The notes under the pieces were generated by a model. That model searched no databases. It saw only the letters and a list, made by a program, of their open reading frames with translations, and was not told where the DNA came from. A DNA stretch of 36,027 nucleotides from a virus: positions 1 to 36,027 of the IMG/VR virus record IMGVR_UViG_3300022851_000050; one strand, written 5' to 3'. The position numbers and the translations under genes are program-made. This document shows positions 1,418 through 13,016 of the stretch, piece by piece (position 1 is the first letter of the stretch; every line of letters starts with the position of its first letter).

Positions 1418-1621
1418 ATGACAGTTAAAATACAAAAGAATAAGATTGTGATTAACGACTTCCAACACTATTGGCAGTCTGCAACTGAACACGGACATGA
1501 GTTCACTTTCGCATATGACAAGGAATTCAAAAACTCCAAAAAATTCACCATAGAAGTAAAGCATTCTGACAAGTTAAGAAGCAAAGATGGTAGATGGTCT
1601 CCAATTAAAATTAAGTCTTGA
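1418..1621 (+). CDS. Hypothetical 67-residue protein
   Basis: I do not recognise this protein. It is charged and Lys-rich, with a short beta-like start (VKIQKNKIVIND) and a middle rich in aromatic residues (FQHYWQ, FTFAYDKEF). It lacks signal peptide, cysteines and membrane segments. The frame is open upstream to 1394, but ATG 1418 is chosen because that ATG falls where transcription from the TTGACA/TACATT promoter should begin; no Shine-Dalgarno precedes it. Its stop codon TGA overlaps the -35 box (TTGACA) of the tmRNA promoter. Confidence 0.6.
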   Translation: MTVKIQKNKIVINDFQHYWQSATEHGHEFTFAYDKEFKNSKKFTIEVKHSDKLRSKDGRWSPIKIKS

Positions 1622-1646
1622 CATTTACCCAATAATCTGTTTAAAT
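1618..1646 (+). promoter_or_regulatory. Sigma70-type promoter of the tmRNA gene
   Basis: TTGACA at 1618-1623, a 17-base spacer and TTAAAT at 1641-1646 put the transcription start near 1653, just upstream of the tmRNA acceptor piece. The -35 box overlaps the stop codon of the preceding gene. Confidence 0.6.
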
Positions 1647-1652
1647 ACACTG

Positions 1653-1967
1653 TAGACGTTGAAGTGTGTGCAATACACTTTTGGGACGAGGGTTCGACTC
1701 CCTCCACCTCCACCAACACTCATTTGAAATAGGCTGGTTTATTTCGAGGGGGTGTACTTGGTTTCGACCGGAGCATAAAAGCACATGGAGTTTATCAGTC
1801 TGATCTCTGTAAAGGATCTTACAAATGCAAACGCATTTAAACCAGAAGTGACAGTTCCAGTTAGCATATTTGCTGACGCGGAATTGGTTGCCGCTTAATA
1901 CCGGCCACTTGGCGGTTGATCTACCGGGCAACAGAACAGATCAAGTGTGGGAGTTTCGGCTCCCACA
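1653..1967 (+). ncRNA. ssrA: Circularly permuted (two-piece) tmRNA
   Basis: tmRNA rescues stalled ribosomes and tags the nascent protein for proteolysis. The gene order is permuted. The acceptor piece comes first: T arm GAGGG-TTCGACT-CCCTC at 1688-1704, 3' acceptor strand CACCTCC 1705-1711, discriminator A and CCA to 1715. After a 32-base intervening segment the coding piece begins with the 5' acceptor strand GGGGGTG (1748-1754). The two strands pair over 7 bp with a G-U at the third pair, the alanyl-tRNA synthetase identity element. The D-region GGTTTCGACC follows. A tag frame runs GCA 1827 to TAA 1898 and reads ANAFKP...AELVAA (23 codons), ending in a Clp-type degron. The 5' boundary of the acceptor piece is estimated from the promoter. 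Permuted ssrA is known from alphaproteobacteria and some cyanobacteria. Confidence 0.93.
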
Positions 1968-1973
1968 TTTCAC
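1946..1973 (+). terminator. Hairpin at the end of tmRNA, terminator-like
   Basis: An 8-bp perfect stem TGTGGGAG/CTCCCACA (1946-1953 with 1960-1967) with loop TTTCGG is followed by ATTTCACTTTC. The U tract is weak, so this may terminate transcription or be the structured 3' end of the tmRNA coding piece. Confidence 0.6.
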
Positions 1974-9362: not shown

Positions 9363-9806
9363 ATGACAAACAAAACACTATCTATATTCAATCAATTAAG
9401 ACCCGTAACAGTGGGATTTGACAATGTGTTCGATCATTTCGAAAGAATGATGGATGATCACAATTTCAACACCATGACTGCTACAAACTTCCCACCGTAC
9501 AACATAGTGAAGACTGGTGAATACACTTATGACGTGGAACTTGCACTTGCAGGTTTTTCAAAAGACGACATAGAGGTAGATTACCAAGACAGTATGTTGA
9601 CTGTTAAATCTAAGGAAAAAGCCAAAGATGCAGACATAGACGGTATGCTTCACAGAGGCATCAGTAAGAGATGGTTTTCTAAAGCCTTTACTATTGCTGA
9701 CGATGTGGAAGTAAAAGGAGCAGAACTTAAAGATGGTTTGCTAAAAATATCTATGGAAAGAATTGTTCCAGAAAGTAAAAAAGCAAGATCAATCGAAGTA
9801 AAGTAA
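9363..9806 (+). CDS. Small heat-shock protein, Hsp20 family
   Basis: A 147-residue Hsp20 (IbpA-type) chaperone that holds unfolded proteins and prevents aggregation without ATP. The alpha-crystallin domain spans about residues 42-140, with PPYNIVKTGEYTYDVELALAGF, then the DDIEVDY strand, and GLLKISMERIVPE near the end. The C-terminal tail has SIEV, the I-x-I/V motif that locks dimers into oligomers. A strong AAGGAGG precedes the ATG. Upstream lie a sigma70 promoter, a late-type box and an inverted repeat, so the gene may be expressed in more than one phase. It lies next to clpS. Confidence 0.95.
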   Translation: MTNKTLSIFNQLRPVTVGFDNVFDHFERMMDDHNFNTMTATNFPPYNIVKTGEYTYDVELALAGFSKDDIEVDYQDSMLTVKSKEKAKDADIDGMLHRGISKRWFSKAFTIADDVEVKGAELKDGLLKISMERIVPESKKARSIEVK

Positions 9807-9817
9807 CTTGGAATATG

Positions 9818-9839
9818 GGTAGGGTGGCAACACCCTACC
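9818..9839 (+). other. GNRA-type hairpin between hsp20 and clpS
   Basis: A 9-bp perfect stem GGTAGGGTG/CACCCTACC closes a GCAA tetraloop. No T run follows, so it is a poor intrinsic terminator. It could slow exonucleases, lower read-through into clpS, or act as a partial terminator. Confidence 0.75.
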
Positions 9840-9861
9840 TAACTAACAATAAGAAGGAAAT

Positions 9862-10167
9862 ATGACAACTGATTTAGAAGTAAAAGTAGATTCGAAAATA
9901 AAGCAAATTTTAAAGACACCAAAAGATTACAGTGTTATCATGTTGAACGATGAAGTAACTCCAATGGATTTTGTTATAGAGCTATTGGTTACAGTTTTCA
10001 AACACACTCCAGAAACAGCCAAAGACATAACAATCAAGATTCACAAGGAAGGTTCTGCAGTAGTAGGTTTATATACATATGAATTAGCAGAGCAAAAAGG
10101 AACTGAAGCCACTAATATAAGCAGAGACCGAGGTTTTCCTTTGCAAATAAAAATAGAACAAGAATGA
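9862..10167 (+). CDS. clpS: ClpS, Clp protease adaptor
   Basis: A 101-residue ClpS homologue, about the usual length. ClpS binds proteins with destabilising N-terminal residues and hands them to ClpAP. The core YSVIMLNDEVTPMDFVIELL (23-42) matches the family block, with Asn29-Asp30 corresponding to the pocket residues that hold the substrate N-terminus. His61 in KIHKEGSAVVG is the third conserved position. The C-terminal LYTYELAEQK is the ClpA-docking strand region. A phage copy could redirect host ClpAP or bring substrates to the phage's own ClpP-like protease 2.3 kb downstream. Its TGA overlaps the next mini-gene. Confidence 0.93.
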   Translation: MTTDLEVKVDSKIKQILKTPKDYSVIMLNDEVTPMDFVIELLVTVFKHTPETAKDITIKIHKEGSAVVGLYTYELAEQKGTEATNISRDRGFPLQIKIEQE

Positions 10168-10307
10168 ACAAATATTATTTTTGGGTAACACTAGAAAACA
10201 AAGCACCAATGAAAGTAGCAGAAGAAGGCAGAACAGCATCAGAAGCCAAATCAATTGTTGAAAGTAGATTTCCAAATGCCAAAGTAATGTTTGCGGAAGG
10301 ATTTTAA
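10164..10307 (+). CDS. Mini-protein, 47 residues
   Basis: I do not recognise this product. It overlaps the end of clpS by 4 bases (ATGA) and ends in TAATG with the heme oxygenase gene, so it is wedged in a coupled operon. It begins with an aromatic strand (NKYYFWVTLEN), has a helix (RTASEAKSIVESRF) and then a strand (AKVMFAEGF), a beta-alpha-beta pattern. Homologues of such compact proteins with V-T/E-x-x-T-A-x-E-A-x patterns occur in other phages, but no function is assigned. Confidence 0.6.
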   Translation: MNKYYFWVTLENKAPMKVAEEGRTASEAKSIVESRFPNAKVMFAEGF

Positions 10308-10855
10308 TGGGACTGAAAGAGTTAACAAAAGAAGTACACCAAGATGCAGAACGACAAGGATTTGTCAAAGTATTAATGAGTGGACAAATGAGTGAAGAAT
10401 TGTATGCAGAGTTCTTGTACAATCAACATGCCATATACAATTTATTAGAAGCCTGTGCAATGTCGCATGGACTACTCAACGACTTTCCACAAATACGTAG
10501 AGCCCCAAGCATATTGGCTGACTTTCAAGAACTTTGGACAAAAGAAGATATGCCAGAACTTGCTCCTAGCACTGAACGATATATTCAACACATGTACACA
10601 ATCAAAGAGGATCCTAAAAAATTAATGGCACACATCTATGTGAGACACATGGGAGATTTAAGTGGTGGACAAATGATTAAGAAAAAAGCACCCGGCAGTG
10701 GCACAATGTATGAGTTCGGAAGAGCAGACGTTAAAGAAATTAAAGAAAGAATCAGAAACAAAACAGACGACAGTATGGCAGATGAGGCTAGACTGTGTTT
10801 TGAATTTGCTACAGAATTATTCAAAGATTTACACAATGCCCAAGAAACAAATTAA
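10307..10855 (+). CDS. Heme oxygenase (biliverdin-forming)
   Basis: Predicted heme oxygenase that opens heme to biliverdin IXalpha, CO and iron with reduced ferredoxin. The distal-helix signature HIYVRHMGDLSGGQMI lies at residues 109-124, and His11 in VHQDAE is the probable proximal heme ligand. It is a soluble helical protein of 182 residues, shorter than plastid or cyanobacterial HO (about 215-240), as phage versions tend to be. A bilin reductase gene follows 176 bases later, so the pair should make a phycobilin from heme. Cyanophages carry ho1 with pebS; uncultured oceanic phages also carry ho with pcyX. Confidence 0.93.
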   Translation: MGLKELTKEVHQDAERQGFVKVLMSGQMSEELYAEFLYNQHAIYNLLEACAMSHGLLNDFPQIRRAPSILADFQELWTKEDMPELAPSTERYIQHMYTIKEDPKKLMAHIYVRHMGDLSGGQMIKKKAPGSGTMYEFGRADVKEIKERIRNKTDDSMADEARLCFEFATELFKDLHNAQETN

Positions 10856-11027
10856 AGACTTTCCTGGTAATTTAATTAGAGTTAAAATTTTAGAAGACGA
10901 AATTAAATATTTCAAAAGTTTAATTCAAGAAAGTGATACTGGACATATCTATACAACAATAGACAGTTTAACGACCAGAGTAAAAGCATTGAAAGGAATA
11001 AAAACAGACGATCCATTTATAAATTAA
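10836..11027 (+). CDS. Small helical protein between heme oxygenase and bilin reductase
   Basis: A 63-residue protein whose start overlaps the heme oxygenase end by 20 bases; an ATG at 10836 is chosen over the longer open frame (from 10698) that would lie fully within the oxygenase gene. It has a basic N-terminus (PKKQIKDFPG), then heptad-like helices (VKILEDEIKYFKSLIQE and IDSLTTRVKALKG), suggesting a coiled coil. No known function. Its location inside the bilin operon is worth noting, although similar small helical proteins occur elsewhere in this window. Confidence 0.6.
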   Translation: MPKKQIKDFPGNLIRVKILEDEIKYFKSLIQESDTGHIYTTIDSLTTRVKALKGIKTDDPFIN

Positions 11028-11030
11028 ATT

Positions 11031-11729
11031 ATGAGCAAAATTTGGGACATATTAATAGATTGTAAAGAGCAAATCATCAAAGAGTTCGATGCCAGAGGCA
11101 CAGAGATTCAAGAAGAAGGTATGGCGCAATTCAATCAGCCAGACAATGGTTGGATCAACAGAGTGTGGAAAACTGAAGATTGTAGACGTTGTCATATAGA
11201 TGTTGTGGATGCTAGAGAATCAAAAGGATTATGGATGATGCACGTGTGTATATTTCCAAACCTAGACAACAACGGACCTATATATGGTTTTGATGTGATT
11301 GCAGGTAAAAATAAAATGACCGGCGCCTTTCATGATTTTTCTAAAAGTTCTGGTGGTGAAGATCACCCATTAATAGATTGGTTTAAAGATGCTGTGGAAG
11401 AATTTATTCCAAGTAAAAAACGTGAATTACCTCAATGGGCATTAAACATATTCAGCGGATCAATGGTTGCCGCAGGTAATGTGAGCAGTGAAGAAGAATC
11501 CAAAGCCATTGTGGATATGGCACTAGAAAATCTAAAAGTGTATTTTGATTCCATAAGTCAATACAACAACACAGCCAAATATGAAGACACAATAGAAGCC
11601 CAAAACTATTACTGTCATAATCAACAACAAAATCCACATACTCCAAGAGTGATGAAGTCGTTGGGACTTAAAGAAGAAGACGTTGAAGTATTCTGCACAG
11701 ATGCACTATTCCCCAAAATTCAAAAATAA
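11031..11729 (+). CDS. Ferredoxin-dependent bilin reductase (PcyA/PcyX/PebS family)
   Basis: Predicted reductase of biliverdin to a phycobilin, using electrons from ferredoxin. Family marks: MMHVCIFPNLDNNGPIYGFDVI (70-90), with His71 and Asp88 spaced 17 residues as in PcyA His88/Asp105; GAFHDFS (98-104); and YCHNQQQNPHTPRVMKSLG near the C-terminus, the family's Q-x-x-N-x-x-T-x-x-x motif. At the place of PcyA's His74-Leu-Glu76 the sequence is HID (55-57), so the Glu that governs vinyl-group reduction is Asp here. This would fit a PcyX- or PebS-like enzyme making phycoerythrobilin rather than phycocyanobilin; that is inference. Length (232) is normal. Confidence 0.85.
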   Translation: MSKIWDILIDCKEQIIKEFDARGTEIQEEGMAQFNQPDNGWINRVWKTEDCRRCHIDVVDARESKGLWMMHVCIFPNLDNNGPIYGFDVIAGKNKMTGAFHDFSKSSGGEDHPLIDWFKDAVEEFIPSKKRELPQWALNIFSGSMVAAGNVSSEEESKAIVDMALENLKVYFDSISQYNNTAKYEDTIEAQNYYCHNQQQNPHTPRVMKSLGLKEEDVEVFCTDALFPKIQK

Positions 11730-11768: not shown

Positions 11769-11933
11769 ATGTTGAAATATCATAATATACAAGATATCAA
11801 ATTGAAACTGACTGCTATGAAACAGAAAAGCATGGAAGTGGAACAAGCAGTTACTAACAACAAATCAGAAGAAGAAATTAAGTTTCTTGCAGATGAGATT
11901 AAACAAATGGCAATGGAAATTGCTAACTCATAA
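11769..11933 (+). CDS. Small helical protein, 54 residues
   Basis: A charged, Met-rich helical mini-protein (IQDIKLKLTAMKQKSMEVEQ and IKFLADEIKQMAMEIANS). Both halves have hydrophobic residues every three to four positions, so it may form a helical hairpin or short coiled coil. The ATG is placed where transcription from the promoter at 11734 should begin, and its TAA overlaps the ATG of the metallopeptidase gene (TAATG). Function unknown. It might be a leader or partner of the peptidase. Confidence 0.6.
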   Translation: MLKYHNIQDIKLKLTAMKQKSMEVEQAVTNNKSEEEIKFLADEIKQMAMEIANS

Positions 11934-12397
11934 TGATCGTCACAGTTTCGGGTACTAATAAAAAAATTGCAGATTTAACAGAAAGTCTAGTACATTATTG
12001 TGCAGACAAATTAAAAATCAAAGATTCAGTTGTGATAGATGTTGAGTTTTCAAAATCACTCTATAAAGAAGATGGTTTATTAGGTGAGGTTGATTTCGAT
12101 GATTCCAATCATAAGCCAAAAGAATTCACTATCACTGTTGACGGCACAGGTTCTAAACGTAAAATCATGGAGACCATAGCACATGAAATGGTACATGTGA
12201 AACAGTACTCCAAAGGAGAACTAGTGGATCTGTCTAGATCCAACTCAACCAGATGGCAAAACAACATCATCAACAAAGACACAAACTATTGGGATCAGCC
12301 TTGGGAAATAGAAGCTCACGGAAAAGAATTAGGATTGTTTATTAGATGGGCTGAAGACACAGAATTATCTCATCAATCTTGGACTCAAACACAATAA
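11933..12397 (+). CDS. SprT-like zinc metallopeptidase
   Basis: Predicted zincin peptidase of 154 residues. The active-site helix TIAHEMVHVKQY contains HEMVH (residues 84-88), with His84 and His88 binding zinc and Glu85 as base. A third ligand is probably Glu125 or Glu127 in DQPWEIEAHGKE, typical of SprT-like and related proteins. The N-terminal part forms beta strands. It may process protein-DNA complexes or phage proteins in the cytoplasm; the substrate is unknown. No signal peptide. It is coupled to the preceding helical mini-gene and is followed by the ClpP-like gene, so two peptidases lie side by side. Confidence 0.78.
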   Translation: MIVTVSGTNKKIADLTESLVHYCADKLKIKDSVVIDVEFSKSLYKEDGLLGEVDFDDSNHKPKEFTITVDGTGSKRKIMETIAHEMVHVKQYSKGELVDLSRSNSTRWQNNIINKDTNYWDQPWEIEAHGKELGLFIRWAEDTELSHQSWTQTQ

Positions 12398-12455: not shown

Positions 12456-13016
12456 ATGAAAAAATACGAATTCTACAGTGCAGAAGAGAGAGCAGAAGTA
12501 CAACTGTTTGACAACGATGTTCATTATCTAAACGGAGAAATCACCGAAGAGAATGTTAGCAAAGCAGTCAAATGGATATTGTCTGCCAACCTCACTAAAA
12601 AGCCTAAACGCAAACTGACACTGTATATCAACACGGTGGGAGGCGACTTGTACGAAGCATTTGCATTGATTGATGTTATGAGAAACAGTCATCATCATAT
12701 TTCCACAATTGGTATTGGTGCTGTGATGAGTGCAGGTTTTTTGATATTCGCCAGCGGCAAACACGGCGAACGTTATGTTGGTAAGAACACGGGTATCATG
12801 AATCATCAGCATTCGGATATTATGGAATCGAAGATGCATGACATGAAAGCACAGATGAAAGAAAATAATAACTGTGAACAAAGATGTATGCAGATATTAA
12901 GAGATGCAACAGGTTTTGGTTTAGCCGATGTTCGTAAAAAATTCAACAATCCTTCCGATCAATACTTTACAGCAAAACAATTGGTTGATTTAAAAATAGC
13001 AGATCACATCTTGTAG
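12456..13016 (+). CDS. ClpP-like serine protease
   Basis: A 186-residue ClpP-fold protease. The oxyanion loop is TVGGDLYEAFAL (60-71). Aligned with E. coli ClpP the catalytic triad appears intact: Ser92 in VMSAGFLIFASG, His117 in IMNHQH, Asp168 in PSDQYFTA. ClpP is a barrel peptidase that degrades proteins unfolded by ClpA/ClpX. In T4-like phages a ClpP-like protein can also serve in head maturation, but the tight match here and the presence of ClpS and tmRNA favour a proteolysis role; both readings remain open. A perfect T4-type late promoter box precedes it, which would give late expression. Confidence 0.88.
   Translation: MKKYEFYSAEERAEVQLFDNDVHYLNGEITEENVSKAVKWILSANLTKKPKRKLTLYINTVGGDLYEAFALIDVMRNSHHHISTIGIGAVMSAGFLIFASGKHGERYVGKNTGIMNHQHSDIMESKMHDMKAQMKENNNCEQRCMQILRDATGFGLADVRKKFNNPSDQYFTAKQLVDLKIADHIL

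Follow-up and report, generated by a model that had tools for sequence, protein, structure and literature searches.

A circularly permuted tmRNA with a conserved, unusually long tag in a phage that also carries ClpS and ClpP genes

Results and discussion

In a 36,027-nucleotide stretch of viral DNA (IMG/VR record IMGVR_UViG_3300022851_000050, positions 1 to 36,027; the whole stretch is referred to here as the window), we identified a circularly permuted tmRNA gene whose unusual feature is not its two-piece form but its tag, which is about twice the usual length and conserved. Relatives that have a tmRNA of this type often carry parts of the Clp proteolytic system as well, which suggests a possible virus-run route for tagging and destroying proteins. 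A recurring partnership of ClpS and ClpP with a permuted phage tmRNA bearing a long conserved tag was not found described in the literature that we searched. Tail-fibre matches of the window point to marine T4-like phages.

The permuted tmRNA gene and its promoter

The gene occupies positions 1652-1946 on the plus strand and is of the alphaproteobacterial type. The merged Rfam model for permuted tmRNAs (RF04321, tmRNA_permuted) was matched along its whole length, scoring 83.4 bits (E 9.7e-15) against a gathering score of 47. The alpha_tmRNA model (RF01849) scored 59.2 bits (E 4.9e-14), also above its gathering score. ARAGORN predicted a permuted tmRNA as well. The features of the locus are as follows.

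1618..1646, plus strand: sigma-70-type promoter, TTGACA-N17-TTAAAT with a TG-extended -10 (sequence)
1652..1715, plus strand: acceptor piece of the permuted tmRNA (RF04321, RF01849; pairing check)
1688-1704, plus strand: T arm, GAGGG-TTCGACT-CCCTC (direct reading)
1705-1711, plus strand: 3' strand of the acceptor stem, CACCTCC (direct reading)
1712, plus strand: discriminator A (direct reading)
1713-1715, plus strand: CCA (direct reading)
1716..1747, plus strand: intervening sequence that processing is expected to excise (separates the two pieces in the RF04321 alignment)
1748..1946, plus strand: coding piece of the tmRNA, 3' end at about 1946-1967 (RF01849 alignment to 1946)
1748-1754, plus strand: 5' strand of the acceptor stem, GGGGGTG (direct reading)
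1827..1898, plus strand: tag frame ANAFKPEVTVPVSIFADAELVAA-stop, 23 codons (RF04321 alignment; viral homologues; pN/pS)
1943..1970, plus strand: terminator-like hairpin of 12 pairs followed by a T-rich tail

The acceptor half precedes the coding half, and all seven acceptor pairs form, the third being G-U (G3-U70), the alanine identity pair. Across the collected phages we saw nine kinds of acceptor stem; G3-U70 was kept in all nine, and several of the other pairs showed changes on both sides. Two further apparent stems, GGATATT and GGAAGAT, were rejected as chance matches. The length of the intervening sequence differs among relatives.

The -35 element of the promoter (TTGACA, 1618-1623) is separated by a 17-nucleotide spacer from the -10 element (TTAAAT, 1641-1646), which ends 5 nucleotides before the tmRNA, so that the acceptor piece begins at the predicted transcription start. 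A simple promoter scan missed this promoter because it demands A at the second position of the -10 element. The window scored 10.5, and a score of at least 9.5 was reached by 84% of 38 distinct sequences lying upstream of phage tmRNAs versus 4% of shuffled sequences; in the same set of 38, the -10 element mostly ended 5-8 nucleotides before the RNA.

An earlier description made from the letters of this DNA without database searches (the sequence-only reading) had proposed a complete, permuted, phage-encoded tmRNA with its own promoter, and had suggested a covariance-model search as a check. Both Rfam models matched, and together with ARAGORN and direct reading they bear the proposal out; its coordinates and its perfect acceptor stem with a G-U third pair are correct, and the promoter is kept across relatives.

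Which tag frame is used, and selection on it

The tag frame starts with GCA at 1827 and its stop codon ends at 1898; resume codon, stop and a hydrophobic Ala-Ala end are all present. ARAGORN printed only the shorter ADAELVAA (8 codons) for the window, and the reading of 23 amino acids therefore needed support. This came from homologues, from the context of the resume codon and from selection at the codon level. First, in close relatives ARAGORN itself picks the 23-amino-acid frame, starting at ANAFKPE. Second, the RF04321 alignment covers both the resume context UGCAAACG and the UAA that closes the frame; AAAT directly ahead of GCA matches other viral tmRNAs, most viral permuted tags having this or a similar context ahead of a GCN codon, whereas the context before GCUGAC does not. 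Third, a degenerate pattern for ANAFKPEVTVP retrieved 43 IMG/VR contigs with ten DNA versions of the tag, and the tag had 23 codons in every one of them, with three peptide versions. In this family pN/pS was 0.21, and 8 of 13 minimal changes were silent versus 27% expected (p 0.009), with silent changes both before and after the short start. The same kind of excess was seen in a 29-amino-acid and a 22-amino-acid tag family (pN/pS 0.31 and 0.10, respectively).

Judged from these sequence comparisons, the 23-codon tag ANAFKPEVTVPVSIFADAELVAA, which the sequence-only reading had also chosen, is a better reading than ADAELVAA. If the real tag were the 8 codons that ARAGORN selected on the window, the upstream codons would belong to the RNA structure. 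We regard this as highly improbable, given the choice of the same program in close relatives, the fit of UGCAAACG to the family model and to contexts seen elsewhere, and the silent changes on either side of the short start.

The selection on the tag also bears on the possibility that the RNA is a decoy, which would tie up host SmpB and block trans-translation in the host; such a role has been proposed for the tmRNA of mycobacteriophage DS6A, which has no tag. Neither the window nor any of 50 related contigs yielded an SmpB gene, and thus the window tmRNA would have to use, and share, that of the host; in addition, a DS6A-like molecule inhibits tmRNA (PMC4131195, PMC11915505). Against this, a decoy could do without a tag frame, whereas the amino acids of the tag are conserved and its end is degron-like; we give this explanation very little weight.

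Tag length compared with other tags

Tags in the tmRNA database are most often 10 amino acids long (PMC11915505), and the alpha_tmRNA consensus (RF01849) has a 12-amino-acid tag (ANDNYAPVALAA), relative to which the window has 35 nucleotides inserted in the tag region. Among the viral contigs gathered here, permuted tags were mostly 8-17 amino acids long. The window tag of 23 lies outside this range, which is typical rather than defining; separate families of long tags exist at 22 (ANKKALGFADLTVGMSELRLAA), 23, 26 (ANVSTFKFWQSPVSVAANDEAFALAA) and 28-29 amino acids (ANDNALSNVTFVDFSAPVTAVNEDFALAA; ADFKANGNVTFVNFGAKLPTNEEFALAA). All of these long tags end in Val-Ala-Ala or Leu-Ala-Ala. The ELVAA end of the window tag resembles an ordinary degron of the ClpX/ClpA type, and its middle part FKPEVTVPVSIF does not occur in other tags.

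By eye, the inserts of the 22-, 23-, 26- and 29-amino-acid tags seemed to share a stretch rich in Val, Thr and Ser before an acidic residue, for which we claim no common motif. The 22-amino-acid family (ANKKALGFADLTVGMSELRLAA) was seen in other aquatic contigs (L022, L025, L297, L316, L325 and L356), some of which carry ClpS.

Occurrence in phages and origin of the locus

The sequence-only reading had considered a two-piece tmRNA in a phage to be rare, which is wrong for marine and aquatic phages. One restrictive pattern for permuted tmRNAs found at least 120 viral contigs in IMG/VR, and 53 two-piece structures, 50 of which come from marine or aquatic sources, have been reported in phages, a background frequency of about 53 per 18,146 genomes (PMC9004378). 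Thus, sequence and Rfam evidence upheld that interpretation as regards a complete, permuted, phage-encoded gene with a 23-codon tag and its own promoter, and rarity is the part that did not stand.

Chance capture of part of a host gene, or chimeric assembly, would account for the family resemblance to alphaproteobacterial tmRNAs, and it is general knowledge that prophages often use ssrA as their attachment site. However, the gene is intact and under selection, and the same locus, with its promoter and gene order conserved, is found in dozens of contigs that come from different metagenomes. This recurrence refutes chance capture and makes assembly chimerism very unlikely. The identical gene in a host genome, named by the sequence-only reading as a sign of chimerism, was looked for with two DNA patterns only, a degenerate one for the tag and a strict one for the tmRNA gene, and neither had a match among the 84,980 species genomes of bacteria and archaea that were scanned. 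Taken as a whole, an origin by host fragment or chimera seems to us extremely improbable.

Clp genes in the window

The ClpS and ClpP genes of the window are new here, having been missed by the sequence-only reading.

9363..9806, plus strand: Hsp20 small heat-shock protein, adjoining ClpS (PF00011, E 1.5e-17; phrog_432)
9862..10167, plus strand: ClpS adaptor (PF02617, E 2.2e-28; PDB ClpS matches)
12456..13016, plus strand: stand-alone ClpP-like serine protease (PF00574, E 2e-27; PDB ClpP matches)

From their residues, both look like working proteins. The catalytic triad of ClpP (Ser92-His117-Asp168) is present and invariant in 51 relatives. In ClpS, the N-degron pocket (Asn34, Asp35, Thr38, Met40 and His66, E. 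coli numbering) and the equivalent of the ClpA-contact residue Lys84 are invariant in 54 phage proteins, and position 36 is Glu in the window and Asp, Glu or Asn across the phage set.

Several observations were made around these genes. Hsp20 lies directly before ClpS both in the window (9363-10167) and in Pseudomonas phage PA5oct (MK797984 172055-172904), and it is one gene away from ClpS in Sinorhizobium phage Phosso (PV764938 396892-398338); the pair thus recurs in unrelated large phages. Just before ClpP, positions 11933-12397 encode a small protein with a HEMVH zinc-protease-like motif, which has no Pfam match and falls in a PHROG without assigned function. At 10307-11729, a heme oxygenase gene precedes one for a phrog_7278 ferredoxin oxidoreductase that may be bilin-reductase-like; this bilin-synthesis pair is known from marine phages. 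In three related contigs (G083, G084 and G085), the ClpP frame contains one in-frame TAG each, which could reflect TAG recoding or a broken gene.

Association between ClpS and the permuted tmRNA

The association scans were queried with the window's own proteins and hence favour relatives of the window. Among 50 contigs with a relative of the window ClpP, 22 had both a permuted tmRNA and ClpS, none had the tmRNA only, 4 had ClpS only and 24 had neither (Fisher test, 1.7e-10, relatedness ignored). The ClpP tree provided four well-supported independent pairs, all of which agreed (p 0.125). Since significance was lost after correction for kinship, we report the link between ClpS and the tmRNA as suggestive. 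In the four ClpS-only contigs, ClpS is close to the contig end; the tmRNA lies 8-14 kb away in near relatives, and it would therefore be expected beyond the contig.

Further contigs selected by ClpS had a permuted tmRNA in 31 of 41 cases, corresponding to 11 of 14 ClpS clusters at 70% identity. Among ClpS contigs longer than 100 kb the tmRNA was found in 8 of 9, some with the two genes tens of kb apart. When contigs of at least 40 kb were picked by a tmRNA pattern instead, 4 of 13 had ClpS and 9 had none. The counts from both directions indicate that ClpS tends to come with the tmRNA and not the reverse. Several phages with ClpS and a tmRNA carry tags of normal length, and thus a long tag is not needed for the partnership. 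Pseudomonas phage PA5oct and Vibrio phage 2.275.O have ClpS and ClpP and gave no tmRNA match above the cut-off. ClpS phages that lacked a permuted tmRNA gave only sub-cut-off matches to standard tmRNAs; these were probably tRNAs, and none was accepted.

Proposed function

The window probably, if only by a modest degree of confidence, encodes a working two-piece tmRNA that acts through host SmpB, with tagged products possibly passing through a Clp pathway partly supplied by the phage; this reading is drawn from sequence. Transcription would begin at the first base of the acceptor piece, where the promoter places it, and host enzymes would process the transcript to pieces of about 64 and 200-220 nucleotides. 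Host alanyl-tRNA synthetase would charge the tmRNA, and host SmpB, proposed as the carrier because no phage SmpB was found, would deliver it to ribosomes that had stalled on mRNAs broken in the course of infection, where the nascent protein would receive the 23-residue tag. The later steps are less sure. Phage ClpS might shift the preference of the host unfoldase ClpA for SsrA-tagged versus N-degron substrates; in E. coli, ClpS suppresses the degradation of SsrA-tagged proteins by ClpAP and favours N-degron substrates. Handling by ClpX is altered when the distance between the adaptor-binding start of a tag and its LAA end is changed. Phage ClpP might add or replace proteolytic capacity, and the phage could in this way control both ribosome recycling and the fate of tagged products. 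The most economical view is that the tmRNA may keep ribosomes usable while mRNAs break, the fate of the tag perhaps being tuned by the Clp parts of the phage.

A simpler explanation, which we consider quite possible though less than an even bet, is that the gene is an ordinary phage tmRNA serving rescue only, in which the middle of the tag is a quirk of the lineage and ClpS and ClpP are unrelated takeover genes in the same lineages. Permuted tmRNAs are indeed common in aquatic phages (at least 120 IMG/VR contigs here; PMC9004378), most phages that have one lack ClpS, tags of normal length occur with ClpS, and ClpP and ClpS of phages have each been described as takeover genes in their own right (PMC7824862, PMC6102473). 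On the other hand, the extra tag codons keep both their length and their amino acids, and the frequency of permuted tmRNAs in ClpS contigs is far above that of about 53 per 18,146 phage genomes (PMC9004378).

The working tmRNA proposed above might also have a more specialized role, in which the tag is a private degron: its extra segment would be read by phage ClpP, ClpS or another adaptor, or would shift the choice of host unfoldase, and would send products to a protease of the phage's choosing. The sequence-only reading had suggested that products could be rerouted to a chosen protease, and the ClpS and ClpP genes of the window, together with the association between ClpS and permuted tmRNAs among related phages, make such rerouting more plausible. 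We hold the private-degron version to be rather unlikely; if true, products of ribosomes stalled in infection would go to a phage-chosen protease.

Proposals for why phages keep tmRNAs range from ribosome upkeep to the recycling of host proteins. A lineage with a doubled and conserved tag, ClpS and ClpP but no SmpB makes this question testable, including whether the phage alters rescue only or the destination of tagged proteins too. In addition, naturally evolved long tags are now available for comparison with the short bacterial ones.

Comparison with known phages

ClpP and ClpS of jumbo phages have been suggested to act on host proteolysis (PMC7824862; Agrobacterium phage Atu_ph07, PMC6102473), and in the available portions of these accounts no link to a tmRNA is drawn, unlike in the window; Atu_ph07 is listed without a tmRNA (PMC11242549). 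Sinorhizobium jumbo phage Phosso (PV764938), an isolate, has a permuted tmRNA, ClpS and two ClpP genes, and differs from the window in that these genes lie far apart in a 469 kb genome and the tag has 13 amino acids (ANDNVSTKVALAA, read by eye). Its tmRNA (349596-350198, minus strand) is absent from the annotation. Synechococcus phage BUCT-ZZ01, the nearest isolate by ClpP, has a permuted tmRNA and ClpP but no ClpS match; the tmRNA (ON615601 116952-117248, minus strand) is likewise unannotated and is overlapped by an annotated hypothetical CDS.

Methylophilales phage Melnitz and Pelagibacter phage Mosig (MT647606) are T4-like marine phages with a permuted tmRNA of the alphaproteobacterial type, like the window (PMC9004378). 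A glutamine riboswitch was reported in Melnitz (PMC9004378), whereas none was found by Rfam in the window, and the gene downstream of the window tmRNA had no similarity to the late-transcription accessory gene of Mosig. The Mosig tag has 9 amino acids (GEDNFALAA) versus 23 in the window, and Mosig has neither ClpS nor ClpP, whereas the window has both.
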